Assembly (NCBI GenBank): GCA_028872955.1 | Contig: JAGWNX010000001.1 | Location: 1 to 64,000, forward strand | DNA: 64,000 bases | From: Acidobacteriota bacterium | Lineage (GTDB): Bacteria > Acidobacteriota > Terriglobia > Terriglobales > Acidobacteriaceae | Direction of reading: 5' to 3' | Part shown: piece after piece, positions 1 to 61,993 of the stretch | Position numbering within the stretch: position 1 is the stretch's first letter | How the letters are laid out: each line of letters opens with the position of its first letter | Position numbers and translations under genes: made by a program | Notes under the pieces: generated by a model | Seen by the model: only the letters and a program-made list of their open reading frames with translations | Database searches by the model: none | What the model was told of the DNA's origin: nothing

Positions 1-2
1 GT

Positions 3-2729
3 CGTCCCAAAGGAGTGCAGATTCCGCACGGTGCCGTTGTCAATCTCCTGCTTGCGATGCAACGACTCCTGCAAACGGGCCACGGGGACGTCTTCCCCGC
101 ACTGGCCTCGTACGCCTTTGACATGTGCATTCCGGAGCTTTACCTGGCACTGGTCAGTGGCGGCACTACGTTGATCGCTCCACAGAACATGGCTGCCAAT
201 GGTGAAGAACTTGCCGAACTGCTCCTCCGCAAACGCGCTACGGTGGTGCATGCAACGCCTACCACGTGGCAGCTGCTGCTGCAGGCTGGCTTCAGCGGAG
301 CAGGTCTCAAGCGAGCGATTGGTGCAGAGCCCCTGCCTCTGGATCTCTGCACGCGACTCCTGCAGGCAGACCCCTCGCTCTATAACTTCTATGGACCAAC
401 CGAGACCACGGTGTGGTCTGCAGTGCATCACTTCACCCATCCTGGTGAGCCCGTTGTGCTGGGCAAGCCCCTGGCCAACACGCAGATCTACATTCTGGAT
501 GCGCACCTGCAGCCGCTGCCCATTGGGGTGCGCGGCGAGATCTACATCGGTGGCGATGGCGTCGCGCACGGCTATCTCAACCGACCCGAGCTAAGCGCCG
601 AACGCTTTCTTCCTGATCCGTTCAACCAACTGTCCGACCGGAGGATCTACCGCACCGGAGATCTAGGACGCTTCCTGGCTGACGGCAGCATCGAGTTTCT
701 GGGTCGCTCAGACTTCCAGATCAAGTTGCGTGGTTATCGCATCGAGCTCACCGAGATTGAAAATGTGATGAGCACCGAGCCGAACGTCCTGGAGTGCGCC
801 GTCGCACTCGCATCGCTTAGCGAGCATGACAAGCGACTGGTTGGCTACGTCGTCTATCGTCAACCCGCAGGCGATGCCCTGGAACAGGTCAAGCAGTGGG
901 CGCGTGAGCGTGTGCCGGAGTACATGGTGCCAACGGTTTGGGTAGAGTTGGAGCGGTTACCCCGCTCGCCCAACGGAAAGGTCAACCGAAACGCCCTTCC
1001 ACAGCCAGTAGTCGTGGCGACCGAACCGGGCTCAGCAGCCGCCATGCAGACGGAGATGGAGCAGCTCGTCGCCGACGTCTGGATCGAGGTGCTGCGTCTG
1101 CCATCCGTCCAACGCGACGACGACTTCTTTGCCCTGGGCGGACACTCGCTGCTGGCAACGCAAGTAGTCTCGCGACTGCGGGAGCGGCTCGACGTCAGCT
1201 TCCCGCTGCGATTGCTCTTTGAGTCGCCCGTGCTGCACGAGCTTGCGCAGCAGTTGCAGGGCCTGGCCGGACAGCCCGCACAGACCGGCATTGAACGTGC
1301 CGATCGCACTCGCCCCATCCCGCTCTCGTTTGCCCAACAAAGGCTGTGGTTCATGGACCAACTTGAACCCGAGAATCCGCTCTACAACGTTGCCTACGCC
1401 GCACGTTTGTATGGGCCGCTGCGGCTCGATCTGGTGGAGCGCAGTCTGCAGGAGATCGTGAAGCGGCACGAGTCACTGCGAACCACCTTCAGCGCGCATA
1501 ACGATGAACCCGTGCAGCAGATTCATCCCAGCATCGAGCTTCCGTTTCAGGTGACGGATCTCACGATGCTCCCGGAGGAAGATCGTTTAGAGCAGGCTCG
1601 TGCACTGGCACGTGCTGCGGTCCGCACACCGTTTCAACTCAGCCGAGGGCCGCTCATCCGCGTTCACCTGTTCCATCTGGCTGAGGAGGAGAATGCTCTC
1701 GTCATCAATACCCATCACATCATCAGTGATCGCTGGTCACTGGGTGTCCTCAGCAGAGAGCTCGTGGCGCTCTACACGGCAATGGAAGAGGGGTTGCCCT
1801 CGCCACTTCCAGAGCTGACCATCCAGTACGCCGACTTCAGCGTCTGGCAGCGGGAACGACTGAGTGGGGCCATGCTGGAGTCTGAGCTTGCCTACTGGCG
1901 GCATGCGCTCGCTGGAGCTCCCTTCCAGCTTCGCCTACCCTATGACTTCGCCCGTCAACAGAACGACGCAAGCTGGGGTGTCTTCTATCGCGATGAACTG
2001 GCGCACGACCTGGCACCGCAGCTTCGCACACTGAGCCGCGACAACGGCGCAACCTTCTACATGACGTTGCTGGCGGCATTCTATGTGTTGCTTGGCGCGG
2101 CTTCCAATCAGGACGAGATGTTGGTTGGCACGGACCTGGCTAATCGGACTGAGGTTGCGCTGGAGTCCTTGATCGGATTCTTCGTCAACCTGCTCCCGAT
2201 GCGAGCACGCCTGCAACCAGAGCAGACATTCACACAATTCCTTGCGCAGGTGCGAGCGACTGCGATCGATGCCTTTGCCCACCAGGAGATGCCCTTTGAC
2301 CGCCTGGTTGAGGAGTTGCAACCGGAGCGGAGTAGCGGGCAACATCCCCTGGTGCAGGTCCTGTTCGTGATGCAGAACACACCCGACATTCACATCGACT
2401 TTGGTTCAATCCGCATGGGCCCCCTCGGAGTAACCAGTTCCTCGCGGTTCGATCTGGTGCTCTTCCTCAACAATCCGGATGGCGAGCCGAATGCGACCTG
2501 GCTCTACAATCCCAGCCTCTTCAAGCAATCCACGATTGAGAAGCTGGCCCGCACGTATCAGCAGATCCTTCGCGCCATCTGTGAGCAGCCCGAGGCCACA
2601 ATTCGCAACTTGCTCTCGCACGCAGGCCGTGTCGCCGCGGAAGGTCGTGCCGACGAACTGAAGGACTATCAAAGCGCAGGTATCCGCAAGCTGAAAGAGA
2701 TGCGCCGCAAAGCTACGCCCGCCTCGTAA
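3..2729 (+). CDS. Non-ribosomal peptide synthetase, 5'-truncated (A-PCP-C)
   Basis: This is the C-terminal part of an NRPS. The window opens inside the adenylation domain: the frame is open to the left edge and begins within core motif A3 (RPKGV). The GTG at 15 is therefore an internal codon, and numbering here counts from it. Domains in order are the rest of the A domain (about 1-335; YGPTETT near 124, NGKVNRNALP near 325), a carrier domain (about 345-415; GGHSL with phosphopantetheine Ser378) and a condensation domain (about 430-860) with motif HHIISDRW (His567, His568, Asp572; the usual Gly after Asp is Arg). A charged tail with RKLKEMRRKA follows. There is no thioesterase. The specificity code read by eye is D-M-P-H-A-G-F-V-W-K, which I cannot assign to an amino acid. 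The next NRPS starts 29 bases downstream, so the two are almost certainly co-transcribed and the terminal C domain should feed the A-PCP of that protein. Confidence 0.95.
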   Translation, partial: RPKGVQIPHGAVVNLLLAMQRLLQTGHGDVFPALASYAFDMCIPELYLALVSGGTTLIAPQNMAANGEELAELLLRKRATVVHATPTTWQLLLQAGFSGAGLKRAIGAEPLPLDLCTRLLQADPSLYNFYGPTETTVWSAVHHFTHPGEPVVLGKPLANTQIYILDAHLQPLPIGVRGEIYIGGDGVAHGYLNRPELSAERFLPDPFNQLSDRRIYRTGDLGRFLADGSIEFLGRSDFQIKLRGYRIELTEIENVMSTEPNVLECAVALASLSEHDKRLVGYVVYRQPAGDALEQVKQWARERVPEYMVPTVWVELERLPRSPNGKVNRNALPQPVVVATEPGSAAAMQTEMEQLVADVWIEVLRLPSVQRDDDFFALGGHSLLATQVVSRLRERLDVSFPLRLLFESPVLHELAQQLQGLAGQPAQTGIERADRTRPIPLSFAQQRLWFMDQLEPENPLYNVAYAARLYGPLRLDLVERSLQEIVKRHESLRTTFSAHNDEPVQQIHPSIELPFQVTDLTMLPEEDRLEQARALARAAVRTPFQLSRGPLIRVHLFHLAEEENALVINTHHIISDRWSLGVLSRELVALYTAMEEGLPSPLPELTIQYADFSVWQRERLSGAMLESELAYWRHALAGAPFQLRLPYDFARQQNDASWGVFYRDELAHDLAPQLRTLSRDNGATFYMTLLAAFYVLLGAASNQDEMLVGTDLANRTEVALESLIGFFVNLLPMRARLQPEQTFTQFLAQVRATAIDAFAHQEMPFDRLVEELQPERSSGQHPLVQVLFVMQNTPDIHIDFGSIRMGPLGVTSSSRFDLVLFLNNPDGEPNATWLYNPSLFKQSTIEKLARTYQQILRAICEQPEATIRNLLSHAGRVAAEGRADELKDYQSAGIRKLKEMRRKATPAS

Positions 2730-2758
2730 GGCTGGCAAACGAATGGGAGCAAACGAGA

Positions 2759-5700
2759 ATGACTGAATCTACCGCAGTGTTTCATCTGGCAGCAGCGCAA
2801 GAGGCCATCTGGCTGCAGCAACGCGAGCCCTGGCTGCTGACTCAGATTGCGATTCGCATCGATGGCGCACTGAACAAGCCGAGACTGGTGAGCGCCTTGA
2901 ATCACTGCGTCGCAACGCATGAGATTCTCCGCACCGCCTACGTTCGCCAGCCGGGCATTGCGGTGCCCTTTCAGAGCATCCTTCCAGCGTGTGCGCCGCT
3001 GGTGGTGGAGCGAGAGACGACCATGCCGCTGCAGGACCTGCTCCAGCAGGAACAGGAGCTCGCTGCCAGCACGCTCGACCTGCAGGCAGGCCCACTGCTG
3101 CGCGTAGCCATCGTCACCACAGCGGCGGATCCCCACACGCTGGTGATTACGACGCCCTCCCTCACCTCAGATACCACGGGGCTCACGCTGCTGGTCTCTG
3201 CCGTCGCGCGGCAGTACAGCAACCACGCAACGGATGCGGAGGAAGAGATTCTGCAGTATGCCGACATCGCGCAGTGGCAAAAGGACATGCTGGCTGAAGA
3301 AGAGGCAGCTCCCTGCCGCGACTTCTGGACGCAGTACTATCGGCGCTTAGAGACCGCCTCCGACTTCAAGTTGCCGCTGCAGCGCAGGCAAGCCTCTTCG
3401 CAACAACACCGTCTACAACTCCCGGTGTCTCTTCCAGCTGAGGTTCAACATGGCCTGAGCTCGCTTGCCGCGCTTTGCAATACATCGATCGCCACGGTGA
3501 GCACAGCACTTTGGGGCCTCACCCTTCTACGCCTCGGCGGCGGCACCGAGATGCTGGTAGGCTGCCTTAGCAACGGGCGTCATCTCGAAGAGCTGCAGGA
3601 TGCTTTTGGCCGTCTTGATCGCATGCTGCCACTTCAGCTCTCTTACGTCCCTTCAGAGCCCACGACGGAGTTTTTGCGTCACACGGCGGCGCTGCGGCAG
3701 GACCTGGAACAGTGGCAGGATGGATTTCTCTGGACAGACTTTGTTGCTTCCAGCAAAACGCAGTCAGACGGGCTACAAACCAGCGTGGCATGGAACACGC
3801 TACCCACATCCCCTGCCTTCGGCGACTCGCCTGGAACCTTCCTGGCCGCAGAGTCACACACGGACATGCTGCCGCTGCAGCTTTGTGCGACACAGGCAGG
3901 AGCGAACCTCTCGCTGTCCATCAACTTTGACTCAGCGTTCTGGAGCAACGTGGCTGCAGAGCAGATTGCCGCCAGCTTTGGCTCCGTCCTCGCCGCCGCG
4001 TGCAGCAACCCCCAGTGCGCCGTGGGCCACCTGCCACTCCTTACCGAGTCACAGACGATGGCAGTCCTCGCCGCCGGGAAAGGTCCTCAGACCCCGCCGC
4101 AGGACCACTGCATCCACGCCCTGTTTGAACATCAGGCAGAGACTCATCCAGATCGCACTGCGGTACGCTGTGAAGACGTAAGTTACACCTACGCAGAGTT
4201 GAATCGCTATGCCAACCGCATTGCTCATCGCCTGCGTGCGCTCGGTGTTGGCCCTGGCAAAGGAGTTGGCATCGCGATTGATCGCTCTGCCGATCTGATC
4301 GCGGCGCTTCTCGGCGTGCTGAAGGCAGGCGGCATGTACATCCCACTCGGGGTTGACGTGCCCAGGGCGCGCCTGGAGCAGCAACTTCATCAGGTCGAGG
4401 TGTTGCTACTGGAGGAGCGCCTGCGAGCTGCCATGCCCGCACTCCCGCACACACTGGCGATTGACAGCGAGGCATGGGATGCCGCGCCAGACCACAATCC
4501 AGTTCCGCTCGCGCAGCCAGAGGATCTGGCGTACGTGCTCTACACCTCTGGCTCCACCGGCACACCCAAGGGAGTAGCCGTTCGTCATCGCAATCTCGTC
4601 AACTACAGTACGTTCATCGTCGAGAAGCTTGCGCTCGCCAGCCATGCGGATGGGCTGCAATTTGCCACGGTCTCTACCATCACGGCCGACCTTGGGAATA
4701 CGTGTCTCTTTCCGTCCCTCATCTCGGGCAGCTGCCTGCATGTCCTTACCTACGACCGCACCACCGATGCTGCTCTGTATGCGGAGTACGTTCGACGCTA
4801 TCCAATCGACGTCTTGAAGATTGTGCCTTCTCACCTGCGGGCCCTGCTGCAGGCAGACGAAGCTCAAGCCGTTCTGCCACGTCGGTTTCTTATCCTGGGC
4901 GGCGAAGCGCTGCATTGGGAGCTGCTCCACGAGATTCAGGCCCTGCACGGCAGCTGTACTGTTCTGAATCACTACGGTCCTACAGAGACAACCGTCGGCT
5001 CGCTGGCCTGCATTGTCGATGACGTCCGTCACCATGAGCAGGACACAGCGACAGTGCCCATCGGCTTTGCCATCGCCAACACTCAGCTGTATGTGCTGGA
5101 CGCACAGCGTCAGCTGGTGCCAAATGGTGTCAGCGGCGAACTATACGTCGGCGGCGCCGGTGTTACGGCAGGCTATTGGAACGATGCGTCACGCACGGCC
5201 GAGCGTTTCGTGCCGGATCCCTTCTGCCCCGGAGCAACCCTGTACCGCACGGGCGATCTGGTTCGTCGTCTGTCCGACGGCGCGATCGAGTTTCTCGGGA
5301 GGTCTGATGACCAGCTGAAGATTCGCGGCTTCCGCGTAGAGCCGGGCGAAGTAGAAGCCTCGCTCAACGCCCACGAAGGGGTGCAACAGGCTATTGTTGT
5401 GGCGCGCGAAGACCGAAGCGGCGAGAAGCAACTGGTTGCCTACGTCGTACTGCAGCGCGACAGCAAAGCGAATGCAGACACGCTGCGCAGCTACCTGCAG
5501 GAGCGGCTGCCAGCGCACATGGTGCCTTCCGCGATTGTGCTGTTGCCCCGCATGCCGCTCAATGCAAACGGCAAGGTAGATCGCAAAGCTCTGCCTGCAC
5601 CGGAGCACACACCTGCACGCGCCCTGGTGCCACCATCCAGCGCCACAGAGGTGGCCATTCATGCGATCTGGGCAGAGGTGCTGCGTCGCGAGCGAGTAAG

Positions 5701-7324
5701 CGTACTGGATAACTTCTTCGACCTTGGCGGTCACTCGCTCATGGCAACGCAGGTCATCTCGCGCATGCGCCGCGCGCTGCAGGTCGACCTGCCACTGCGT
5801 CTGATATTTGAAGAGCCAACCATTCGTGCCATTGCCTTGGTTGCCGATCGGCATAAGTCACCAACGACGGAGTTGCCGCCCCTTGTAGCCGTGGAGCGCA
5901 CCGGCCCGCTGCCACTCTCGTTCGCACAGCAGCGCCTTTGGCTGATGGATCAGATGGAGCCGAACAATCCGCTCTACAACATCCCGCGCCGTGTGCGGAT
6001 GCGCGGTGCACTGGACATTGCGGCGCTCCAGTATGCGCTCGACACTATCGCGGCGCGGCACGAGGCATTACGCACCCGCTTTGTCGCCGTGCAAGGCGAA
6101 GCTGTACAGGTGATTGACGCACCGACTTCCCTGACGATCAGCATCGATGACCTGAGCGCCGCTGCCGACGCCTTGCAGGAAGCGCGATCCATTGCAACAG
6201 CAGAGGCGGTCGTTCCCTTCTCGCTTGCGGAAGGCCCCTTGTTACGCGCCAGACTGCTGCGCCTGGCGAGTGACGACCACATCTTCCTGCTGACCATGCA
6301 CCACATCGTGAGCGACGCCTGGTCGGCCGGTGTCTTTCTGCAGGAGCTTAGTGAGCTGTACGACGCGAAACGCAGCGGCCGCAACACGGAGCTGCCGGAG
6401 TTGTCGATCCAATATGCGGATTACGCAGCCTGGCAACGCAAGGTGCTGGATGGGGAACGCCTCACGCAGCAGCTTCGTTACTGGCAGGATCAACTCCGCG
6501 GCGCACCGGCGCTGTTGAACCTGCCCGGGGATCGACCTCGCCCAGCCCAGCAGACGTATCGTGGTGGACACGAAACAATCGTCTTCCCGGGCGAAGTCGC
6601 CTCGGCACTTCGCACACTCGCGCTCGAGACTGGCACCACTCTCTTCATGACCATGCTGGCCGGCTTCCAGCTCATGCTCTCGCGCTACTCCAATCAGGAG
6701 CAGGTCGTTGTCGGCACTGACCTGGCCAACCGCACCACCACTGAGACCGAGCGGCTGATTGGCTTCTTCATCAACCTGCTGGCACTTCGTCTTGATCTGA
6801 GCGGGAACCCGACGTATCGCGAACTGCTGGATCGCACGCGCGAGGCCGCGCTGGGTGCCTACGCACATCAGGAGATGCCCTTCGAAAAGCTGGTTGAAGT
6901 GCTGCAACCAGAGCGCAGCCTGAGCCACCATCCATTGGTGCAGGTGCTCTTCGTCATGCAAAACCTGCCGCGCGTGCGTCGCGAGCTGAGCGGACTTACC
7001 CTGGAGCCGTTCGAACTGCCGATCACGCGTTCGAAGTTTGATCTGGCCGTCTTCGTAACCGATGGCGAGCAGGACCTGACCTGCCACTGGCTCTACAGCA
7101 CAGACCTCTTCGACGCTGCAACTATTCATCAGTTTGCGCGCAGCTTTCAGGCGCTGCTGCGCAATGCCGTGGCCCAGCCGGAGGCACGCATTCACACCAT
7201 CGAAATGATGACGACTGAGGAGAAGCAGCAGGCAGAGGAAGAGAAGAAGCGGAAGAAGCAGTCGCAGCTATCCAGACTGAAGAACGTTGCGCCAGTACCA
7301 GTCGCCGCTCCGCCGCAGGAGTAA
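2759..7324 (+). CDS. Non-ribosomal peptide synthetase (interface-like C*-A-PCP-C), predicted Asp
   Basis: A 1521-residue NRPS. An N-terminal condensation-superfamily domain (about 1-420) has Pro133-Ser134...Asp138 where HHxxxDG is expected, so the catalytic His is absent. It is followed by an adenylation domain (about 440-960; A3 TSGSTGTPKG near 597, A5 NHYGPTETT), a carrier domain (Ser993 in GGHSL) and a normal C domain (His1181, His1182, Asp1186). Aligning the A domain by eye gives the code D-L-T-K-I-G-H-V-G-K, almost the classical aspartate code (DLTKVGHIGK), so Asp is the likely substrate. A condensation-like domain without the active His just before an Asp-activating A domain fits the 'interface' domains of beta-hydroxy-Asp siderophore synthetases, which dock an Fe(II)/2-oxoglutarate hydroxylase; no such hydroxylase lies in this window. 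The protein ends in a Lys/Glu-rich tail (about 1487-1521) containing SRLKN. It has no thioesterase, and its stop lies 4 bases from the stop of the convergent Wzt gene. Confidence 0.95.
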   Translation: MTESTAVFHLAAAQEAIWLQQREPWLLTQIAIRIDGALNKPRLVSALNHCVATHEILRTAYVRQPGIAVPFQSILPACAPLVVERETTMPLQDLLQQEQELAASTLDLQAGPLLRVAIVTTAADPHTLVITTPSLTSDTTGLTLLVSAVARQYSNHATDAEEEILQYADIAQWQKDMLAEEEAAPCRDFWTQYYRRLETASDFKLPLQRRQASSQQHRLQLPVSLPAEVQHGLSSLAALCNTSIATVSTALWGLTLLRLGGGTEMLVGCLSNGRHLEELQDAFGRLDRMLPLQLSYVPSEPTTEFLRHTAALRQDLEQWQDGFLWTDFVASSKTQSDGLQTSVAWNTLPTSPAFGDSPGTFLAAESHTDMLPLQLCATQAGANLSLSINFDSAFWSNVAAEQIAASFGSVLAAACSNPQCAVGHLPLLTESQTMAVLAAGKGPQTPPQDHCIHALFEHQAETHPDRTAVRCEDVSYTYAELNRYANRIAHRLRALGVGPGKGVGIAIDRSADLIAALLGVLKAGGMYIPLGVDVPRARLEQQLHQVEVLLLEERLRAAMPALPHTLAIDSEAWDAAPDHNPVPLAQPEDLAYVLYTSGSTGTPKGVAVRHRNLVNYSTFIVEKLALASHADGLQFATVSTITADLGNTCLFPSLISGSCLHVLTYDRTTDAALYAEYVRRYPIDVLKIVPSHLRALLQADEAQAVLPRRFLILGGEALHWELLHEIQALHGSCTVLNHYGPTETTVGSLACIVDDVRHHEQDTATVPIGFAIANTQLYVLDAQRQLVPNGVSGELYVGGAGVTAGYWNDASRTAERFVPDPFCPGATLYRTGDLVRRLSDGAIEFLGRSDDQLKIRGFRVEPGEVEASLNAHEGVQQAIVVAREDRSGEKQLVAYVVLQRDSKANADTLRSYLQERLPAHMVPSAIVLLPRMPLNANGKVDRKALPAPEHTPARALVPPSSATEVAIHAIWAEVLRRERVSVLDNFFDLGGHSLMATQVISRMRRALQVDLPLRLIFEEPTIRAIALVADRHKSPTTELPPLVAVERTGPLPLSFAQQRLWLMDQMEPNNPLYNIPRRVRMRGALDIAALQYALDTIAARHEALRTRFVAVQGEAVQVIDAPTSLTISIDDLSAAADALQEARSIATAEAVVPFSLAEGPLLRARLLRLASDDHIFLLTMHHIVSDAWSAGVFLQELSELYDAKRSGRNTELPELSIQYADYAAWQRKVLDGERLTQQLRYWQDQLRGAPALLNLPGDRPRPAQQTYRGGHETIVFPGEVASALRTLALETGTTLFMTMLAGFQLMLSRYSNQEQVVVGTDLANRTTTETERLIGFFINLLALRLDLSGNPTYRELLDRTREAALGAYAHQEMPFEKLVEVLQPERSLSHHPLVQVLFVMQNLPRVRRELSGLTLEPFELPITRSKFDLAVFVTDGEQDLTCHWLYSTDLFDAATIHQFARSFQALLRNAVAQPEARIHTIEMMTTEEKQQAEEEKKRKKQSQLSRLKNVAPVPVAAPPQE

Positions 7325-7328
7325 GCAG

Positions 7329-8603
7329 CTAGTCGGTACTAAGTGTCCAGTGGTGGGGCAGCACCAACGCCCCATTCCACGGCACCTTTCCTGTGCCGTA
7401 GTAGTCTGACTCGATCACGCTCACGCGCATGGCCTCTTCAATGGAGTCGGCCTTCGCATTGCTGATGTCGAGCCACAAAAACGTGGTGTACTCCCCGGGC
7501 ACCAGCGTAAAACTGGGAATGGTGCAGGTAAACACCAGCGCCCCGGAGTGCTGGTCGCTGTCGCGCTCCGGCTCAAAGCAGCTGTGCGCGGTAAAGATGC
7601 GCTGGCCAAAGAGATTATTGAAGCCAATGCCGATGTTGAAGCTGTCCGTCGGCCGGGGCAACTCAAAGTGGATGCGAATCTTGAGTGCCGCGCCGATGGT
7701 CAGTCCCTCCGTCAGCGGACGATCCCCATCCGTGTACAGCTCAGCGCGCTTCAGCAGCTTGCCCAGGGGCGATTTGCGATGCTGTGTTTCCTCAAACTCA
7801 ACGACATTCTCATTCGTCCCACTGCCCGCCGACGCCGAAGAGAGATAGTACTGCACGGCCTCCTTGGCGCTGCCGTCGAAGACCTTGGTCCCCTTCTTCA
7901 ACACCAGACCCCGGCTGCACAGGTTCTCTACCGCTGCCATGTTGTGCGATACGAAAAGTACGGTGCGGCCACTATGGCTCACCTCGCTCATCTTGCCCAG
8001 ACACTTCTTCTGGAAGGCCATATCGCCCACGGCCAACACCTCATCCACAATGAGGATCTCGGGGTTCAGATGTGCTGCCACCGCGAAGGCAAGCCGAACA
8101 TACATGCCGCTGGAGTAGCGCTTCACCGGCGTATCCAGAAACTGCTCCACCTCGGCGAAGGCGACGATCTCGTCAAACCGCGCAGCAATCTCCGCCTTGC
8201 GCATGCCCAGCGTTGCACCGTTCAGAAAGATGTTCTCGCGTCCGGTCAGCTCAGGATGAAACCCTGTACCAACCTCCAACAGGCTGGCGATGCGTCCGCG
8301 TACATGGATGGTGCCGCGTGTGGGATTGGTGATGCGGGCCAGCACTTTCAGCAAGGTACTCTTACCTGCGCCATTGCCACCCACCACGCCCACCACTTCG
8401 CCTTCAGCGATGTCGAAGCTCACGTCATTCAACGCCCAGAACTCATGAACTTGGGCACGAGCCGCCGAGGCTGAGCCGTCCAGCATGCGCATGGGGGCGC
8501 GTAGCTTGCGCGAGATCAGCTCACGCAGCGTCTCGGAGTGATACTGCTGACGACCGATCAGATACTGCTTGGAGAGATTTCTGACTTCAATTATCGATGC
8601 CAT
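7329..8603 (-). CDS. wzt: Polysaccharide ABC exporter ATPase, Wzt/TagH type, with C-terminal glycan-binding domain
   Basis: ATPase subunit of an ABC-2 exporter that moves undecaprenyl-linked O-antigen or exopolysaccharide across the inner membrane. Walker A GGNGAGKST is at residues 75-83, the signature YSSGM near 163, Walker B ILIVDEV near 185 and the switch region FVSHN near 218. The N-terminal 240 residues form the nucleotide-binding domain. Residues about 270-424 match in position and length the beta-sandwich of Wzt proteins that recognises the glycan terminus and couples export to chain-end modification; this assignment rests on length and architecture. The start is the ATG one base after the permease stop, so the two subunits are translationally linked. 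The gene is last in the minus-strand glycan group and converges on the NRPS gene. Confidence 0.93.
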   Translation of the reverse strand: MASIIEVRNLSKQYLIGRQQYHSETLRELISRKLRAPMRMLDGSASAARAQVHEFWALNDVSFDIAEGEVVGVVGGNGAGKSTLLKVLARITNPTRGTIHVRGRIASLLEVGTGFHPELTGRENIFLNGATLGMRKAEIAARFDEIVAFAEVEQFLDTPVKRYSSGMYVRLAFAVAAHLNPEILIVDEVLAVGDMAFQKKCLGKMSEVSHSGRTVLFVSHNMAAVENLCSRGLVLKKGTKVFDGSAKEAVQYYLSSASAGSGTNENVVEFEETQHRKSPLGKLLKRAELYTDGDRPLTEGLTIGAALKIRIHFELPRPTDSFNIGIGFNNLFGQRIFTAHSCFEPERDSDQHSGALVFTCTIPSFTLVPGEYTTFLWLDISNAKADSIEEAMRVSVIESDYYGTGKVPWNGALVLPHHWTLSTD

Positions 8604-8604
8604 A

Positions 8605-9429
8605 TCAGATCACATCCGCAAACACGCTCTCCATCCGTCGGAAGAGCAGCAGGCCAACAAAGAACAGAACACAGCTGACACCAAGCGAGAGGCCCATCAA
8701 AGACCACGACGCAGGGCTGCCCAGCAACGCGTGACGAAAACCAACCACGACACCAGCCATCGGATTCAGCCCGATCAGCACCTGCCAGCGCGCCGGAATA
8801 TAGTGAATTGGGTAGATGACCGGCGTGGCGAAGATCCCCATCTGAAGCAGAAACGGGACCGCATACTTCACATCGCGAAAGCTGACGTTGACCGCCGACA
8901 AGATCAGGCCGGCGCCGGCTGAGGCCATCAGCGCGCCCAGGATGAAGATCGGCAGTTCGAGCACGTTCCAGGTCAACGGCCAGTGATAGTAGAGCATCAG
9001 CACGCCCAGCAGCAGCAGGCTCAACAGCATGTCCATCAGGAAGGCGCCGATGGCACCCAGCGGGATGAAGAACCTCGGGAAGTAGACCTTCGACACCAGC
9101 TGCTGGTTGCTGATCAGGCTGTTGCTCGATTGCGAGACTGAGGTGGAGAAGAAGTTCCAGGCCGCGACCCCGGCGAAGGCAAACAGCGGGTAGGGCGCGC
9201 CATCACTGTTCATGCCCGCAAGGCGGTGGAAGATGAAGGTAAACACGAGCATGGCGATGAGCGGCTGTAGCAGTGCCCACAGGCCGCCCAGCAGCGTCTG
9301 ACGGTACCGGATCTTAATATCGCGCCAAACCAGGAAGACAAGCAGTTCGCGGTACAGCAGCACTTCGTTGAAGTCGATGGGCTGCCAACCCTTGCGGGGC
9401 TGAATCGTCAGTTCAAAGTGAGACTTCAT
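8605..9429 (-). CDS. wzm: Polysaccharide ABC exporter permease, Wzm/TagG type
   Basis: A 274-residue ABC-2 type permease with about six membrane segments and the conserved early motif VFLVWRDIKIRYRQTLLGGLW, typical of Wzm/TagG/RfbA, including the DIKxRY element before the first helix. It pairs with the adjacent Wzt ATPase to export a lipid-linked polysaccharide. The N-terminus (MKSHFELTIQPRKGW) is the usual cytoplasmic lead of the family. A 127-base gap separates it from the upstream CAP-domain gene. In that gap I see an AT-rich CATAAT about 66 bases before the start but no convincing -35, so a local promoter is possible but unproven. Confidence 0.93.
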   Translation of the reverse strand: MKSHFELTIQPRKGWQPIDFNEVLLYRELLVFLVWRDIKIRYRQTLLGGLWALLQPLIAMLVFTFIFHRLAGMNSDGAPYPLFAFAGVAAWNFFSTSVSQSSNSLISNQQLVSKVYFPRFFIPLGAIGAFLMDMLLSLLLLGVLMLYYHWPLTWNVLELPIFILGALMASAGAGLILSAVNVSFRDVKYAVPFLLQMGIFATPVIYPIHYIPARWQVLIGLNPMAGVVVGFRHALLGSPASWSLMGLSLGVSCVLFFVGLLLFRRMESVFADVI

Positions 9430-9556
9430 GGGCTCTCTGGATCCTGCGGCAATCGACGCCTTGCCTCAGCAGGGCTCCCACTTATTATGCTTGGATTGGA
9501 GCGGAAATAGCGAAGCACTTCAGGGGAACGACCGTACCCCCTTGGTGGTAGTGCTG

Positions 9557-10402
9557 TTAGGGGTAGAGCAGCACCGCGATGGTATATGCCGTGAACGAAC
9601 CGGTATCGGTTGCGGGGCACGCGCCAATCGCGGCCTCGCGATACTTGCCCGTATCCAGGCGGTGCTTCAGCTCGGCTGGAATCACATCGAGACTCGACGA
9701 GGTGTAGCGCATAATGAACCACGGCTTGCGACTGCCTGCATGTCCTGTGGGCATGGCACAGGTCTTGCGCGCATCTTCCACAACTGGGCCACCATCGTTG
9801 TCGACTCGAATGCCACTCTGTTGCACCAGGGAGGCTACGGCAGTCTCCTGCGCGTCGATACTCAGTGTCTCCACCGTCGTCGCAAAGTCCTCGACCGCGT
9901 AGACGTCACCATCCCGCACCACCACCGCGATACCAATCGCCGTTACGGTCGGGTTCAGCAGATTCTCGCGATGACCATCGGAGTTCATCCACAGGTCGTG
10001 GATCAGCACCGGATCATCCGCCAGAGCCACGTTCTCGGCGATCTGGGAGAAGTGCAGACCAGCATCCGCCCCGCGTGTCTCCAGGTCTGGCTCGCCCTCA
10101 AACTGATGCGAGATGTTGCCATGGTCTGCCATCTGGCCCGCGTGGAAGGCAGCGGCGCGAGCCAGCACAGGATCCCAGCGCAACTCACTCAGTCCGCGCT
10201 GCTGGCGCTCCAGGTTTGCAGCCATCATCAAATATTGTTCGCCAATGGATGGGGTCGCAAAGGCATCGATCGCTGCGGTCTCTCGCTGCGGCGTCAGTGG
10301 CTGCTCAGCAGCCAGCAGACGTGTACACCCTGCACCCAGCAGCAGAGCAAGCACCAGGGCCGATTGTAAGACTGTGCGAGACAGTGGGTTGACTTGCCGC
10401 AT
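9557..10402 (-). CDS. Secreted CAP/SCP-domain lipoprotein
   Basis: About 281 residues. I chose the ATG at 10402 because it gives a clean lipoprotein signal (short basic start, hydrophobic core, LLGAGC lipobox); the open frame upstream of it has shadow-like composition. The CAP core runs from about residue 50 to 175: MAANLERQQRGLSELRWD (family pattern N..R...GL..L.WD), then ARAAAFHAGQMA with the first conserved His, NISH, the Glu in IAENVA, and SDGHRENLL with the second His. These are the CAP tetrad positions, so the fold is confident. A non-CAP extension of about 100 residues follows. CAP proteins act outside the membrane, but their bacterial biochemistry is poorly defined. The gene lies between fcl and wzm on the same strand, so a role in envelope glycan assembly is possible but only inferred. 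Confidence 0.85.
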   Translation of the reverse strand: MRQVNPLSRTVLQSALVLALLLGAGCTRLLAAEQPLTPQRETAAIDAFATPSIGEQYLMMAANLERQQRGLSELRWDPVLARAAAFHAGQMADHGNISHQFEGEPDLETRGADAGLHFSQIAENVALADDPVLIHDLWMNSDGHRENLLNPTVTAIGIAVVVRDGDVYAVEDFATTVETLSIDAQETAVASLVQQSGIRVDNDGGPVVEDARKTCAMPTGHAGSRKPWFIMRYTSSSLDVIPAELKHRLDTGKYREAAIGACPATDTGSFTAYTIAVLLYP

Positions 10403-10535
10403 AGAGAATCTGACCCCGGTAACAGCAGACAGCGGGTTCCGGTCGCTGCCGTGTATGCCGAGTCTAGTGACGGGGTCGGTGCGGGAGAATACAACTTTCA
10501 GGGAGCATGGTGCGCATTGACGAACGGCTGCGGCA

Positions 10536-11513
10536 CTACAGGCGGTCGCGCACTGCCTGCCACGTACGCTGGATTCCCTGCTCCAGCGATGTGGTGTGGT
10601 GCCAGCCCAGCCCATGCAGACGCGAGACATCCATCAGCTTGCGCGGCGTTCCATCCGGCTTCGTGGTGTCGAAGTGATGTTCGCCACGGTAGCCCAGCAC
10701 GCGCGCCACAATCTCCGCCAGTTCGCGTATCGTCACATCCTCACCGGTTCCAATGTTGATCAGCGGCGGCTCGGATGCGGTCAGAAGACTGCCGTAAGCG
10801 TCTTCCTGTAGATTCATCAGAAACACGCAGGCCTCAGCCAGATCGTCCGAGTACAGAAACTCGCGGCGCGGCGTGCCTGTTCCCCAAACCGTCAGCGAGT
10901 CTGCCCCGGAACGTATCGCCTCGGCCGTCTTGCGCATCAGCGCCGGCAACACGTGCGAGGTGTTCAGATCAAAGTTGTCGTTGGGCCCATACAGATTGGT
11001 GGGCATGGCTGCCAGGTAGCGCGTGCCGTACTGCCGGTTATAAGCCCAGCACATCTCAATGCCGGCGATCTTGGCTAGCGCATAGGGCCGGTTGGTCGGC
11101 TCCAGCGGCCCGGTAAGCAGGCACGACTCCGGCATGGGCTGCGGGGCAAGCTTGGGATAGATGCAGGACGAGCCGAGGAACAGCAGTCTGCGCACACCAT
11201 GGCGATGTGCGGCCTCAATCACATTGGTCTGCAGCACCAGGTTGTCCCGGATAAACTCCGCCGGGTACGTGTTGTTGGCCAGAATGCCGCCCACCTTGGC
11301 CGCCGCCAGAAAGACAAACTCCGGCCTCTCCGCAGCGAACCAGGCATCCAAGGCAGCAGCGTCCAACAGGTCGAGCTGCTGGCGCGATTGCGTGAGCACC
11401 TGGGTATAGCCCAGCGACTCCAGATGTCGATGAATGGCAGAGCCCACCAGGCCGCGATGTCCGGCCACAAAGATGCGAGCACTGTGCGGCATGAATGCTG
11501 AAGCAGGTGCCAT
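10536..11513 (-). CDS. fcl: GDP-L-fucose synthase
   Basis: Converts GDP-4-keto-6-deoxy-D-mannose to GDP-L-fucose by NADPH-dependent epimerisation and reduction. This is a 325-residue short-chain dehydrogenase/reductase with the Rossmann motif GHRGLVG near residue 18, the family signature AAKVGGILANN, GSSCIYP carrying the catalytic Ser, and the YALAK catalytic Tyr/Lys pair. The start at 11513 lies 2 bases after the gmd stop, so the two enzymes of the pathway are made in sequence. An in-frame ATG seven codons later (MPHSARIFVAG) gives a start closer to the E. coli protein and cannot be excluded. Confidence 0.95.
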   Translation of the reverse strand: MAPASAFMPHSARIFVAGHRGLVGSAIHRHLESLGYTQVLTQSRQQLDLLDAAALDAWFAAERPEFVFLAAAKVGGILANNTYPAEFIRDNLVLQTNVIEAAHRHGVRRLLFLGSSCIYPKLAPQPMPESCLLTGPLEPTNRPYALAKIAGIEMCWAYNRQYGTRYLAAMPTNLYGPNDNFDLNTSHVLPALMRKTAEAIRSGADSLTVWGTGTPRREFLYSDDLAEACVFLMNLQEDAYGSLLTASEPPLINIGTGEDVTIRELAEIVARVLGYRGEHHFDTTKPDGTPRKLMDVSRLHGLGWHHTTSLEQGIQRTWQAVRDRL

Positions 11514-11515
11514 CG

Positions 11516-12607
11516 CTAACTCTCGCGCACGTTGTAGGCGTCAAAGCCGTGGTTGCGTACCAGGGCGTCCCGCTCTGCAGCCTTCAGGTCCGCCTCCACC
11601 ATCTCCCGCACCAGTTCGTCAAACGAAGTGCGTGGCGTCCAGCCCAGTTCGCGCTGCGCCTTGCCGGGGTCGCCCAGCAGCGTCTCCACCTCGGTGGGGC
11701 GAAAGTACCGCGGGTCGACGGCAACAATCACATTTCCCTTCTCGTCCAGTGCCTTCTCGTCCACGCCGCTGCCCTGCCAGGTCAGTCTCATCCCCAGCAG
11801 ATCTGCCGAGCGCTGAATGAACTCGCGCACGGTGTACTGCTGTCCCGTGGCAATCACGTAGTCCTGCGGCTGCTGCTGCTGCAGCATCAACCACTGCATC
11901 TCCACATAGTCGCGCGCGTGGCCCCAGTCGCGCTTTGCACTCAGGTTGCCCATGTACAGGCGATCCTGCAGGCCGGTCTTGATGCGAGCCAGCCCACGGG
12001 TAATCTTGCGCGTCACGAAGGTCTCACCGCGGAGCGGAGATTCATGATTGAACAGAATGCCGTTGCACGCGTAGATCCCATACGCCTCACGATAGTTCAC
12101 ACAGATCCAGTAGGCGTAGAGCTTGGCGACAGCATAGGGCGAACGCGGATAAAAGGGCGTCGTCTCGCGCTGCGGCACCTCCTGCACCAGGCCATACAGT
12201 TCGCTGGTCGATGCCTGGTAGAACCGTGTCTTCTTCTCCAGCCCGAGGATGCGAATCGCCTCCAGCAGACGCAGCGGACCAATCGCGTCAGCCTCAGCCG
12301 TATACTCCGGCTGCTCAAACGAGACCTGCACGTGCGACTGTGCACCCAGGTTATAAATCTCGTCTGGCTGCACCTGCTGCACAATGCGAATCAGCGACGA
12401 GCTGTCGGTCAGGTCGCCATAGTGCAGAAAGAAGTGAGGCGAGGGGTTGTGCGGGTCCTCGTAGATATGGTCGATGCGTGCCGTGTTGAAGAGCGAGGAG
12501 CGGCGCTTGATGCCGTGCACCTCATAGCCTCGGTTGAGCAGAAACTCGGCCAGGTACGCTCCATCCTGACCCGTCACGCCGGTGATAAGGGCTTTCTTCA
12601 AAACCAT
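11516..12607 (-). CDS. gmd: GDP-mannose 4,6-dehydratase
   Basis: First enzyme of GDP-L-fucose (and GDP-rhamnose/perosamine) synthesis; it makes GDP-4-keto-6-deoxymannose. The protein of about 363 residues starts at ATG 12607 ([10 protein letters not shown]). It carries the NAD(P) motif [15 protein letters not shown], the conserved [16 protein letters not shown], the active-site stretch STSELYG (catalytic Thr replaced by Ser) and the YAVAK Tyr/Lys pair. Upstream in-frame codons read through low-complexity non-family sequence and are not used. It sits between a glycosyltransferase gene (37 bases upstream) and fcl (2 bases downstream), forming a GDP-fucose and glycan-assembly operon. Confidence 0.96.
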
Positions 12608-12644
12608 GCACTCCTTGCATCCTGAGGATGCGGTTAGTCCGATA

Positions 12645-13970
12645 TTACTCGACCGCACCAGCCCCTGGGCAGCGCAGCTCATACAACTCTCGTTCCAGCG
12701 CCTCCAACACCTGTTGCCGGCCCAGGTGCTGCACCGCGTACGTTCGCGCCGCTGCTCCAAGCTGGTGACGCAGCTCCGCGTCTGCCGCCAGGCGCGCCGC
12801 TGCCGCAGCCAGGGCCTCTGGCTCCTCGGCAGGCACCACCAGCCCGCAGGCCGCGTGCGGCATCAGCCCCTGGCCAGAGATCACCTGCGCCACCTGCGTG
12901 CCCGCATCCGCCGTCGCAAGTACCGGACGCCCGCTCGACAACATGCCGGTCAGCTTCGAGGGCATCACCAGGTCCGCTGCGCCTGCACGTTGCGGCAGCA
13001 GATGCACATCCGCAGCATTCAACAGATCGTTCAACCGCTCCAGTGGCTGCAGGGGCAGCAGCGTCACGTTGGGCCGATCCGCCAGCAGCGCCTCCAGTTG
13101 CGGTCGGAACGCGCCATCGCCGCAGAAGAGAAAGTGAACGCGCGCGTCGGCAAACGCTCCTCCCGGGGCAAAGGCTGCCGTCAGCGGATCAAACAGCTCC
13201 AGCCCCTGCTTGGCACCCATATTGCCGGAGTAGAGAAACAGCAGCTTCTGCTGCAGTCCCAGCTCTTCGCGAACGCTGTTGGGCACCGAGTGCGCTTGCG
13301 GCACAATCGCGTCAACATCTACCCAATTCGGAAAGAAGACGGTCTTCTCTGCGGGGATGTCCTTGCTTTGCAGCCGCTCCAGCATCCGCGTGGAGATGGT
13401 GGAGACACGATCAAAGGCCTGCGTAAAGGCTGACTCCAACCGCAACGCCAGCCGGTGCGTGTTGCCACCCGGCGGCAGCAGCCCCAGGTCAAAGGCCGCA
13501 TCCACCTCGAAGTCCTGTACATGCAGCCAGGCAGCCGCGCCGGTGGCGCGCGCCACCAGCAGCGTTGCCGGTGCGCTGAAGAACGTTGGCTCCACGGTAA
13601 ACACCACATCGGCCTGCCAGAACAGATGACGCACCGCCACAGGCAGGCTGCCCAGCAGGAATGAGGCCAGGTGCAGCACACGCTTCAGGCCATTGGGCTG
13701 GGCCGGAACATACAACGGGCAGCGATACACAATCGGCTGGCGCGGCGTACGGCCGCCACGGTTCTCGGTCCGATAGTACGAGCCGCGATAGTCCTCGCGG
13801 ATGGACCATGCCGGGTAATACGGCGGTGCCGTGATCACGCGCACCTCATGCCCGCGCTCCGCCAGCCAGGCGGCCATCTCGCCGGTGTACTTGCCGATGC
13901 CGGTCAGCTCCGGAGCGTAGTTGATGCCGTAGATGAGTACCCGCAGCGGCGAGCCCAGTTCACGTGCCAT
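12645..13970 (-). CDS. GT4 glycosyltransferase, WcaI-like
   Basis: About 441 residues, starting at ATG 13970 ([21 protein letters not shown]). The N-terminal half holds the motif [20 protein letters not shown] and the APPYYPAW loop typical of the colanic-acid WcaI group of GT4 enzymes. The C-terminal half has the GT-B nucleotide-sugar site ([14 protein letters not shown] and a later acidic region before [13 protein letters not shown]). The expected role is transfer of a sugar, plausibly fucose given the next two genes, onto a lipid-linked oligosaccharide at the inner membrane; donor and acceptor cannot be read from sequence. It is first in the minus-strand run and is transcribed divergently from an ABC permease gene. 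Confidence 0.9.
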
Positions 13971-36658: not shown

Positions 36659-39600
36659 TTACTGGATGGTGTAGTTGATCGTCGTGCTGTGCGAGATGTT
36701 GCCCGACGTTGCCGTCACCGTCAACACATACGTGCCAGTCGCTGCCGCCACATTGGTCGAAGTGGTGGTCGTCGTGGTCGTGCCGCCTCCGGAGTTCGAA
36801 CTCGACGAGCAGCCCACTGCGCTGATCGCCGCGACCGACAGCAGCACCGCAACCAGCGCACCCAGGCGACGGCGTCGCGGCAGCACCAGGCACAACAGGC
36901 CTGAGAGCACCACACCGCCACCCGCAGGCGCGTACCATGGCATCTCCACACCGGACGGGCGCAGCGCACCGTGCAACACCGGCTGCGTGCTTGTGCTGTT
37001 GGAGTTCTGGTAGGGATACAGCGTCAGCACCGTGGTGCCCGCAGTTGTGCCGGTGATGGTCACCGGCGACGCCGAGAAGCTGTATCCGATGGGCGCACCA
37101 TTGCTCACAACGCCGGGCAGGAAGCCCTGCACGGTAAACGTCACGCTGCCAGTGAACCCGTTGGCCGGGGTGATGGTGATGGGAATCGTGCCCGAGGGCC
37201 CGCCGTAGCTCGAACTCGCCGCAGAGCTGCACGGAGAGACAGCGAAGTCCTTTGCCGTGCCGGAGATAAAGTCAATGTTGGTCGGCACCACATTACCGCC
37301 GCTGGTCGGCAAAGTCACGCTGCCCAGTTGACCGGAGGAAGGTGCGAAGTTGGTATCGCCAGAGTAGATCGCGCCAATCTTGTGGACGCCGCTCAGTCCG
37401 CTCACGTCCAGCGCATAGGTCAGGGGGCCGTTGGCAGGCAGGGGCTGCGGTGCTACGCCGGTCATCACCTTGCCATCTACGGTGAATTGTATGGTTCCCG
37501 TCGGCGTCAGGTTGCTGTTCACCGCACTCGTCACGCCGCTTGCATAGGAGCTGGTCGTGCCGTTCCCCACGCTCACCGTTACATTCAACGTGCCCTGCAC
37601 ACCGCTCACCAGGTTCTCCATAAGCGTAGTGCCGCTGCCGTAGATAGCCATCGTGCATGCGCCGGTGTTGGTGGTGGAGAGATAGGTGTAGGTGCTGGCC
37701 TTGGAGGGCGTCGCGCCGTTGCTCGTCGTCTGCACCGTCGCCCAGTTATTGGCAGCGTTGGCAATGTTCATGCTGCCCCAGCCCGTAGCCAGGTCATAGC
37801 CAGCGTTGGCGCTGTAGCCAATGGAGCCGCCAGTAGCTGTCGTACAGTCTACGGTGCCGAGGACGCAGGGGCTGTTGTTATTGCCGGAGCTCACGTCGTT
37901 GTATACAGCCAGGCTGCTGTTTGCAGCCAGCGCGTACAGCGCCGGGTTGATGTTGCCCAGGCGCGAACCAAGCTTCTGCTCGATCAGGGCCAGTGCACCG
38001 GCAAACGCAGGCGTGGCAAATGAGGTGCCACCCGCGGCATCCAGGTAACCGCTCCCGTTACGGTAACCCGAGGTACAGAAACCCGCCGAGCAGTAGAGAT
38101 ACGGATCGTGCACGGCGGCCGACGCAAACGAGACATCCGGCACGTCGCGCGCACTGTCGGCAGGCACACCTACGCCGGTCTGCCAGGCAGGCTTGGCAAA
38201 GAATGCACTGGCCCCACCCGTGCCTGCGGAGAGCAGGTTGGTGCTGCTGGACTCGTTCCACGGCAGCTCGGGGATGTAACCGGTGGCTGAGCCGCCGTTG
38301 CTGGTCGTGCCGCTGCCGTTCGAGTTCCAGTAGTTCGTCGTGCCCGTGGTGGAGCCGTCATTGAACATGGTGCCACCCACTGCCGTCACATACGGCGACG
38401 TCGCCGGGTACCCGACGCTCAGCCCCAGCACCGCCGGGAAGTTTGAGTTGTCGCCGTCACAGGTGGTCGCGCCGGAGTCGCCGGAGGAGTTGACCACCGT
38501 CTGCCCCTGCGCGTTGGCCTGCTCAAACAGTTGATTGAAGGCCGCCATGCTGGCCGGGCCAAAGTCGGCCTCGCAGGCACCGTAGCTGATCGAGACAATC
38601 GGCGCCGTGTTGTTGTCAATCGCGTAGGTCAGCGAGTAGTTGAAGAGATCGCTGGAGTAGACAAAGGCGATGGGTGCCGCAGGCGCAATGGCACCGGCCC
38701 ACTCCAGGTCCAGGTCAGACTCCGCCAGGTCGCCCGACGAAGGGAAACAAGTGCTTGGTGCATTGGCACTCAGGCAGGCCGTCGTGGGGTAGCCCGGATC
38801 AGCGCAGCCTAGAGCCGTGGTTGTCGAGGAGCAACCCAGCACCAGCGTGGGCGTAATCGACGTATTGAGCCCGGACGCGCTGCGGAACGCCGTGATGTCC
38901 GTGAGATTCACATGAACCTGACCGACCACCGCAATGGCGTAGGTCGAGCCCGTCGCCGCCGCCGTGCCGCTGCCGTTGATTCCAGCGCTCAGCAGCGGCG
39001 TGACGTTGTAGATGGTGTTCCAGTCGCCCGGAGCAAGGTAGTGGTTGCCGCTCGTCGTCGAGGTAAAGTTCGGCGTGACGGAGCTGCGGCGCAGGCGCGG
39101 CTGCGGCTTGAAGTCGTCCAGCCCGGTCACCGCAGTCACCACACCGGCGATGGCGGCGGGCAACTGCACGTTGGCCGTGTTGGCAAAGTGCGTCACGCCA
39201 TCCACCGTAACGCGATGCATGTTGGTACCGAAGGCGCGATCGATCTGCGCGACCGTGCCGTTCACCCGCAACCAGGTGCGGCTGCGAGCCACCTCCGTAA
39301 CGACGAGGCCCTGGGAGGAGAGCCACGACTTCACCTGGCTCAGGTCGCTGCTGCTCAAACCGAAGCGCGCGCCAAACTCCTCGGGAGTCAGCCACTGGTG
39401 GTACTGGGGAGAGGCAGGATTCTGCAGGTTGTCCAGTAACTGGGCCAGGTCTGCCTGCTGTGTCGCGCTCAGGCTGAAGCGCAGCGTCACGCCGGAGAGC
39501 TGCTGGCCAACCGGCAGAGCCCCCAGGTCCTGCGCATGGGCCAGACGAGCCGGCACCGTGTTGGGCAAAGACGCGCGATGCGCGTCGTCGACAGCGGCGA

Positions 39601-39688
39601 TGCGATTGGGAAGGACGGCCCAGGCCTGAACCAGGGAGGTTGCACTCAGGATGACTCCGGCAAGAACAGCGGTAAAGCGACGACGCAT
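36659..39688 (-). CDS. Secreted S53 (sedolisin/kumamolisin-like) peptidase with Ig-like repeats
   Basis: 1009 residues. The signal peptide (MRRRFTAVLAGVILSATS...) is followed by a pro-kumamolisin activation domain (about 45-190: LTPEEFGARFGLSSSDL, VNGTVAQIDRAFGTNMH). The S53 catalytic domain (about 215-590) has all four key residues: Glu323 and Asp327 in ESDLD, the oxyanion Asp404 in SSGDSG and the nucleophile Ser556 in GGTSFATP. This should be an acid-active serine-carboxyl peptidase. Ig-like repeats (TPTGTIQFTVDG, HKIGAIYSGDTNF) follow. The tail has helix-RRRR-helix-GC (SAVGC), a Ser/Thr/Gly linker and a short beta module ending INYTIQ. The 226-base gap upstream contains a repeated hairpin motif. 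A second, inactive paralogue lies directly upstream on the same strand. Confidence 0.93.
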   Translation of the reverse strand: MRRRFTAVLAGVILSATSLVQAWAVLPNRIAAVDDAHRASLPNTVPARLAHAQDLGALPVGQQLSGVTLRFSLSATQQADLAQLLDNLQNPASPQYHQWLTPEEFGARFGLSSSDLSQVKSWLSSQGLVVTEVARSRTWLRVNGTVAQIDRAFGTNMHRVTVDGVTHFANTANVQLPAAIAGVVTAVTGLDDFKPQPRLRRSSVTPNFTSTTSGNHYLAPGDWNTIYNVTPLLSAGINGSGTAAATGSTYAIAVVGQVHVNLTDITAFRSASGLNTSITPTLVLGCSSTTTALGCADPGYPTTACLSANAPSTCFPSSGDLAESDLDLEWAGAIAPAAPIAFVYSSDLFNYSLTYAIDNNTAPIVSISYGACEADFGPASMAAFNQLFEQANAQGQTVVNSSGDSGATTCDGDNSNFPAVLGLSVGYPATSPYVTAVGGTMFNDGSTTGTTNYWNSNGSGTTSNGGSATGYIPELPWNESSSTNLLSAGTGGASAFFAKPAWQTGVGVPADSARDVPDVSFASAAVHDPYLYCSAGFCTSGYRNGSGYLDAAGGTSFATPAFAGALALIEQKLGSRLGNINPALYALAANSSLAVYNDVSSGNNNSPCVLGTVDCTTATGGSIGYSANAGYDLATGWGSMNIANAANNWATVQTTSNGATPSKASTYTYLSTTNTGACTMAIYGSGTTLMENLVSGVQGTLNVTVSVGNGTTSSYASGVTSAVNSNLTPTGTIQFTVDGKVMTGVAPQPLPANGPLTYALDVSGLSGVHKIGAIYSGDTNFAPSSGQLGSVTLPTSGGNVVPTNIDFISGTAKDFAVSPCSSAASSSYGGPSGTIPITITPANGFTGSVTFTVQGFLPGVVSNGAPIGYSFSASPVTITGTTAGTTVLTLYPYQNSNSTSTQPVLHGALRPSGVEMPWYAPAGGGVVLSGLLCLVLPRRRRLGALVAVLLSVAAISAVGCSSSSNSGGGTTTTTTTSTNVAAATGTYVLTVTATSGNISHSTTINYTIQ

Positions 39689-39708
39689 GCAGAAACCCTC
39701 AGTAGAAA

Positions 39709-39782
39709 GGCTACCAGCCAGACAGTGCAGACGCGCCCGGAAGCACCTCCCGTACCTCAGGAGTTAGGGCTACCCCAGCCAG
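39709..39782 (-). repeat. Repeated mini-hairpins in the leader of the S53 gene
   Basis: On the minus strand CTGGCTGGGGTAGCC (39768-39782) and CTGGCTGGTAGCC (39709-39721) are near-identical. Each can fold as GGCT/AGCC, and they lie 61 bases apart in the 226-base leader (39689-39914). I could not match them to a known riboswitch. Confidence 0.4.
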
Positions 39783-39914
39783 GGGGGTGGTCATCCTAAG
39801 AAGTTAAGACACGACTGCATCTCTATAGACAGAGTATTTGGGAAAAGGTTGCAGCTACGACGCAGGTTCTTTTGTGCGACGGAAATCCACGGCACGGCGC
39901 AAGCGGCAGACCAA

Positions 39915-61590: not shown

Positions 61591-61687
61591 GGAATCTCCA
61601 GCAAAGAGGGCTAGACCACCGGCAACAGCCGGCAGCGTGCAGCGACGTCGGTGCGCGGGGCACCCGGACGAGGTTCTTTGCCTACGA

Positions 61688-61993
61688 TCAGGTTCGTAGC
61701 GGCAGGGACAGCGCGCGAGAGATGCCAAGATGCGCACGCGCCTCTGGCAGCAGCCACACAGGCTGTGGGCTGCACCGTACTGCGACGCGCTGGCCCATCT
61801 GTTCCATCACGCGACGGGCAATGACCGCCACCGTCAACAGAACTAAAGCGACGAACAGCACGATGAGAAAGAGCGGAAACTCCGAGTCGCTCGCCAGTCC
61901 CGGCGGGTCCCACCGGTCAAAGCACTCCAGCAGCGGCATCACCAGCGCCATGGTGGCCAGCAGCAGGGTAACGAGCGTGAGCAACCGCTTCAT
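61688..61993 (-). CDS. Small membrane protein of unknown function
   Basis: 101 residues with two hydrophobic segments (LLTLVTLLLATMALVMPLL and FPLFLIVLFVALVLLTVAVIARRV), an acidic loop between them and a basic C-terminal tail. No convincing ribosome site precedes ATG 61993. It lies 97 bases upstream of the TonB receptor gene on the same strand. No family is recognised. Confidence 0.55.
   Translation of the reverse strand: MKRLLTLVTLLLATMALVMPLLECFDRWDPPGLASDSEFPLFLIVLFVALVLLTVAVIARRVMEQMGQRVAVRCSPQPVWLLPEARAHLGISRALSLPLRT

Follow-up and report, generated by a model that had tools for sequence, protein, structure and literature searches.

The second of two NRPS genes at the start of this contig opens with a domain that phylogeny, architecture and the code of the neighbouring adenylation (A) domain support as an interface (I) domain, an inactive member of the condensation superfamily. 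Judging from sequence, we consider it quite probable that this domain works with a TauD-family hydroxylase acting in trans, and that one such enzyme serves three aspartate modules. The design is a known one in an unusual form: none of the three I modules has the hydroxylase fused to it or encoded directly upstream.

The first domain of the second synthetase

The window, the 64,000 nucleotides that we analysed, is the start of contig C91 in the draft genome of a soil acidobacterium (3.48 Mb in 207 contigs). It opens inside an NRPS gene, so that the A domain of protein 1 is interrupted at its A3 motif by the contig end. Pfam finds a partial AMP-binding domain, PP-binding and Condensation in protein 1, and two Condensation domains, AMP-binding and PP-binding in protein 2 (Table 1). 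The two genes are co-directional with 29 bp between them. NCBIfam gave only generic NRPS matches for both proteins, and no NRPS gene lies 3' of the last condensation (C) domain of protein 2 on the plus strand of C91. Directly after the NRPS genes, positions 7329-12760 of the minus strand hold a Wzt-like ABC exporter pair and two sugar-nucleotide epimerase/GDP-mannose dehydratase genes, which look like a polysaccharide locus rather than siderophore export. Elsewhere in the window (36659-42920, minus strand), two neighbouring proteins of about 1000 residues have pro-kumamolisin activation domains, one of them with bacterial Ig-like repeats.

Table 1. Features of the NRPS cluster in the window (contig C91) and on contig C139.
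Feature	Position	Strand	Basis or remark
NRPS protein 1, (A, code DMPHAGFVW)-T-C	C91 3..2729	+	ORF and Pfam; 5' end cut by contig end
C domain, C-terminal in protein 1, HHIISDR	C91 1311..2639	+	C half of split module
Protein 1 C-terminal tail, IRKLKEMRRKATPAS	C91 2682..2726	+	matches basic tail/linker motif of proteins preceding hydroxylases/interface domains
NRPS protein 2, I-A(Asp)-T-C	C91 2759..7324	+	ORF and Pfam
I domain, inactive, condensation superfamily, starts protein 2	C91 2774..4078	+	motif, HMM, tree, AlphaFold2
PSLTSDT replacing HHxxxDG, I domain of protein 2	C91 3155..3175	+	motif reading
A domain of protein 2, code DLTKIGHVGK, predicted Asp	C91 4085..5368	+
Thiolation (carrier) domain, protein 2	C91 5624..5863	+
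C domain, C-terminal in protein 2, HHIVSDA	C91 5903..7246	+
Protein 2 C-terminal tail, ..QLSRLKNVAPVPVAAPPQE	C91 7247..7321	+	resembles fused C-to-hydroxylase linkers by eye; fails strict motif
NRPS cut at contig left end inside C domain	C139 (L023) 1-6927 and 7038-10238, shared with FkbH proteins	-
FkbH-family (HAD-IIIC) protein with carrier domain, and separate FkbH C-terminal-like protein	C139 (L023) 7038-10238 and 1-6927, shared with NRPS
I-A(Asp)-T protein	C139 13457-10266	-
Free-standing C domain	C139 13633-15042
I-A(Asp)-T protein	C139 15184-18387	+
TauD-family hydroxylase, stand-alone	C139 18630-19667		PF02668
C-A-T-C-A.. NRPS, very probably continuing into C91	C139 right end, 3' of TauD	+

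The first-pass annotation had read PSLTSDT in place of HHxxxDG at the start of protein 2, the code DLTKIGHVGK in the A domain that follows, and a functional-looking C domain closing protein 1. Our own readings agree. The C3 motif is TT-PSLTSDT-TG, with both His residues gone, the Asp retained and the Gly replaced by Thr; the code is DLTKIGHVG(K); and the C domain ending protein 1 retains both His residues, as does the one ending protein 2. The Asp of PSLTSDT is invariant across 27 interface domains (alignment A3).

An I-domain HMM gave the three I domains of this genome (G000) scores of 427-448 bits, its training alignment containing these three, and 294 HH-type C domains reached 275 bits at most. 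In a maximum-likelihood tree with reference I domains chosen by architecture and not with the published HMM, 50 I domains lay on one side of a branch with an SH-aLRT support of 100. That group consists of the three paralogues of this genome and 47 others, including CcsI and CcsL of cyanochelin B and domains from Pseudomonas, Variovorax and cyanochelin clusters. The AlphaFold2 model of the domain (pLDDT 91) has the C-domain fold, with a TM score of about 0.8 to C domains. A sequence search of the PDB returned no entry named interface domain, and its top matches were the condensation domains of Txo1/Txo2 and PvdL.

Because the tree places the domain in one group with 49 further domains of this type, among them the two of the cyanochelin B cluster, we assign it as an I domain, as the first-pass annotation had proposed. 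It belongs to the condensation superfamily (PF00668), has lost HHxxxDG, lies directly 5' of an Asp A domain, shares a clade with I domains of known pathways and, given the contig join that we infer below, has a matching Fe(II)/2-oxoglutarate (2OG) beta-hydroxylase in its cluster. An ordinary LCL/DCL or epimerisation domain is ruled out by the motif, the HMM scores and the tree. Chance decay of a single C domain is likewise rejected, because three paralogues and 47 others form one group. None of the outcomes that the first-pass annotation had named as fatal to its reading (clustering with ordinary C domains, a non-Asp code, no hydroxylase nearby) was found.

The hydroxylase and its contig

All PF00668 matches of the genome lie on C91 and C139. 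The latter contig is 24,679 bp long, and its plus strand leaves an A domain unfinished at the right end. The sequence there matches PF00501 positions 1-108, while the start of C91 matches positions 176-384; frame and orientation fit a single A domain broken in its most conserved part by an assembly gap of about 100-200 bp. C139 thus very probably adjoins C91 directly. A related genome (G014) was considered as proof of the contig order and set aside: its contig stops 1.4 kb upstream of the hydroxylase and shows no I domain.

Two further features of C139 deserve description. Its free-standing C domain, directly 5' of an I-A-T protein, reads PHLAFEG for HHxxxDG, with the first His and the Asp changed and the second His retained. 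In the NRPS at the left end, the first C domain leads into what looks by eye like degenerate FkbH sequence and then into a T domain, where an A domain would be expected. Together with the FkbH proteins, this stretch possibly points to a glyceryl-type unit among the building blocks of this cluster.

The upstream hydroxylase that the first-pass annotation had suggested looking for turned up on C139 as a TauD-family gene, the sole PF02668 match in a genome rated 100% complete. It is a stand-alone ORF of 346 aa, with no fusion to an NRPS C-terminus. By alignment, it is 51-53% identical to two Leptolyngbya enzymes, which are cyanobacterial NRPS-fused Asp hydroxylases. A tblastn search of a plasmid collection gave as its closest matches the hydroxylase domains that end cyanobacterial NRPS, with 53% identity to the one in the cyanochelin B cluster. 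The HxE...H motif and the Arg are retained (H120, E122, H314 and R323, all invariant in alignment A1); we take the invariant Arg to bind 2OG. In a tree of 130 relatives, the enzyme is nested with a support of 99 in a clade of 92 rows, 75 of them fused enzymes, and groups there with other stand-alone Terriglobia enzymes. The nearest sequenced relatives that bear this hydroxylase are Terriglobia/Acidobacteriaceae, e.g., Granulicella sp. JANXYX.

Because the C139 enzyme is stand-alone, we regard it as a relative of the NRPS-fused (IbetaH) Asp hydroxylase clade rather than as a fused IbetaH itself. Another hydroxylase could be missing from the assembly, since C139 breaks off within a C domain at its left end. 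Fused enzymes give a 3S product according to a rule quoted in PMC12628792, which would lead one to expect L-threo-beta-OH-Asp from this enzyme, itself not fused.

Related loci and the assignment of one enzyme to three modules

We annotated 111 loci, mostly retrieved via their TauD, from Cyanobacteriota, Pseudomonadota, Nitrospirota, Acidobacteriota, Chloroflexota, Gemmatimonadota, Myxococcota, Actinomycetota and Verrucomicrobiota. Their recurrent unit is [..C-TauD][I-A(Asp)-T..] or [..C][TauD][I-A-T]. An Asp-type code follows 86 of 96 readable HH-less C domains and 14 of 133 HH-bearing ones (sequences not independent), so the pairing of HH loss with an Asp code exceeds chance. I domains start a protein in essentially all of these loci. 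The split of a C-I-A-T module between two polypeptides, which had been pointed out in the first-pass annotation, is therefore real but not peculiar to this cluster: the C/I border is where interface-domain modules are usually divided.

Upstream of 90 I domains, we found 65 NRPS ending in TauD, 18 TauD genes alone, 3 contig edges or no same-strand NRPS, and 4 other arrangements; this adjacency is inflated because the loci were mostly selected by their TauD. The four placement exceptions comprise two of the three I domains in this genome, one on another Terriglobia contig (L047) and one on a Klebsiella plasmid. Transcribed divergently, this genome's third I module is not preceded by a TauD. The plasmid locus (L034, positions 1-20326 of CP067531.1, the clinical conjugative plasmid pC696_1 of Klebsiella pneumoniae) encodes an NRPS with an interface-like domain reading PAASLDYVS, an A domain with an Asp code, and a TauD that lies 3' of the I-A-T gene.

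In a scan selected by I domain across 396 members of the phylum, every complete code was DLTKxG(H/E)VG; four candidates per genome were scored, so the counts are lower bounds. Some I-type domains there precede DLTKxGEVG, an Asn-like code, which weighs against the model proposed below. One such domain (L153, G110:C118) lies before a DLTKIGEVG A domain at the start of an open frame of 6220 residues, and this junction suggests beta-hydroxy-Asn variants in Acidobacteriota.

In the mechanism that we propose, the I domain of protein 2 would keep the condensation fold without condensation activity and would hold an Fe(II)/2OG aspartyl beta-hydroxylase beside the Asp loaded on the carrier of the same module. 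Peptide bond formation there would fall to the C domain that ends protein 1, acting in trans. The hydroxylase would be the stand-alone C139 enzyme, placed about 8 kb upstream by the proposed contig join, and it would probably serve three I-A(Asp)-T modules: that of protein 2 and those of the plus- and minus-strand proteins on C139. A C139 C domain would pair with an I-A-T protein there, the C domain of protein 1 with protein 2 and, by elimination, the last C domain of protein 2 with the minus-strand I-A-T protein. The product would be a peptide with up to three L-threo-beta-hydroxyaspartates. We observed three I modules and one TauD directly; the action of that one enzyme on all three is what we infer.

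Nearly all other loci provide the I module with its own hydroxylase, fused or directly upstream, and this counts against our model. It fits better with the C139 hydroxylase acting on one or two I modules only, the C91 module being vestigial or using an enzyme from a missing contig. That reading is favoured by the lack of a TauD before the I domains of C91 and of the C139 minus strand, and by the truncation of the cluster at the left end of C139. We nonetheless think it somewhat unlikely, given that the genome, rated as complete, has a single TauD and that L047 likewise carries C and I-A-T without an adjacent TauD, its lone stand-alone TauD lying 3 kb downstream. That the degenerate C domain merely caps or docks the protein N-terminus, with no role in hydroxylation and the Asp left unmodified, is very improbable: the domain does always open its protein and face one that ends in a C domain, the window has no fused or adjacent hydroxylase, and the C-terminal tails suggest docking, but in several phyla this family of domains goes together with TauD enzymes and with codes of the Asp/Asn/His type, and the sole TauD of this genome belongs to the same family as NRPS-fused Asp hydroxylases.

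The tails of interest are ..IRKLKEMRRKATPAS and ..LSRLKNVAPVPVAAPPQE. Fused C-to-TauD linkers read ..KFKxIKPKAVSL.., the N-termini of stand-alone hydroxylases ..LGxIxRKAVxL.., and the tails of C-ended proteins before a stand-alone hydroxylase ..QKLKxIKRKAxS. A strict regular expression, written after we had inspected the tails and therefore post hoc, found the motif in 20 of 24 C-ended proteins before TauD, with about 7 expected after shuffling (p about 3e-8, relatedness ignored), and in 1 of 25 E-ended proteins. We found no description of the motif in the papers searched. It may serve in docking, recognised by the I domain or by the hydroxylase, or it may be a remnant of an ancestral fusion. 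A bolder version, which we consider unlikely, would make the I domain of these Terriglobia a docking hub for a short basic motif (~KLKxIKRKAVS) carried both by the tail after the preceding C domain and by the N-terminus of the free hydroxylase, with a mobile hydroxylase visiting three split modules and a tris-(beta-hydroxyaspartate) peptide filling six iron sites.

The cluster probably extends interface-domain beta-hydroxylation to Terriglobia with hydroxylase and synthetase uncoupled, so that what interface domains recognise can be tested in a system free of covalent fusion. The motif common to tails and linkers is a concrete candidate for such recognition and could help to predict protein order in split clusters.

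The product and known systems

From the codes, the peptide should hold up to three beta-OH-Asp residues together with the residues of two DMPHxGFVW modules and one DLFNNALTY module; we read the last code as Ala-like. The beta-OH-Asp peptide that the first-pass annotation had predicted is thus supported, and its further suggestion of a metallophore stays unproven. Iron chelation through beta-OH-Asp is plausible but unsupported, and we would put it a little short of an even chance. Siderophores account for many of the characterised peptides made by hydroxylase/interface systems (cyanochelins, variochelins; PMC12628792, PMC10999976), and six coordination sites could be occupied by three beta-OH-Asp residues. 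However, no siderophore receptor, FhuF, exporter or other siderophore/metallophore transport gene lies next to the cluster in the C91 flank, the left flank being outside the assembly; the genome has no TIGR01783 match over the cut-off; and non-siderophore beta-OH-Asp lipopeptides exist, e.g., turnercyclamycin (PMC12971057). The window does encode a TonB-dependent outer membrane protein (OMP_b-brl_4; 58711-61737, minus strand), 51 kb from the NRPS genes and not among the TIGR01783 matches. Three beta-OH-Asp residues, if truly present, would make the peptide a candidate for a new kind of acidobacterial chelator.

Interface domains of siderophore NRPS were reportedly the subject of work by Reitz et al. 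in PNAS in 2019. Like them, the domain described here lacks HHxxxDG, stands directly before an Asp A domain and has an Fe(II)/2OG Asp beta-hydroxylase in its cluster. Unlike in those systems, the hydroxylase is not fused to the preceding protein or directly upstream, and there is one for three I modules. Such domains are also treated in PMC12971057 and PMC12230676.

The NMR structure of cyanochelin B places beta-OH-Asp at exactly two modules (PMC12628792). CcsI (L025:3337-) and CcsL (L036:11829-) both open with an I domain and both carry DLTKIGHVG, and these I-A-T proteins correspond to the two beta-OH-Asp residues. The cyanochelin B cluster (Leptolyngbya sp. NIES-3755 plasmid 2, AP017310.1) thus resembles ours in its splits between C and I-A(Asp)-T and in its codes. 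It differs in having a hydroxylase for each of its two I modules (one enzyme fused, the other a lone gene directly upstream) and adjacent iron uptake genes, and in making a PKS/NRPS lipopeptide.

The X-domain of glycopeptide antibiotic NRPS recruits oxygenases (P450s) to the carrier-bound substrate. It too is an inactive condensation fold (PDB 4tx2, 4tx3, 6m7l; our model has a TM score of 0.78 to 4tx2), but its partners are P450s, unlike those of the I domain, and the parallel is functional only. In the CysH/CysJ system of cystobactamid, the hydroxylase likewise acts in trans, there on Asn of a free-standing NRPS module, but that system, unlike this one, uses an AMDH domain and the shuttle protein CysB (PMC7966384).
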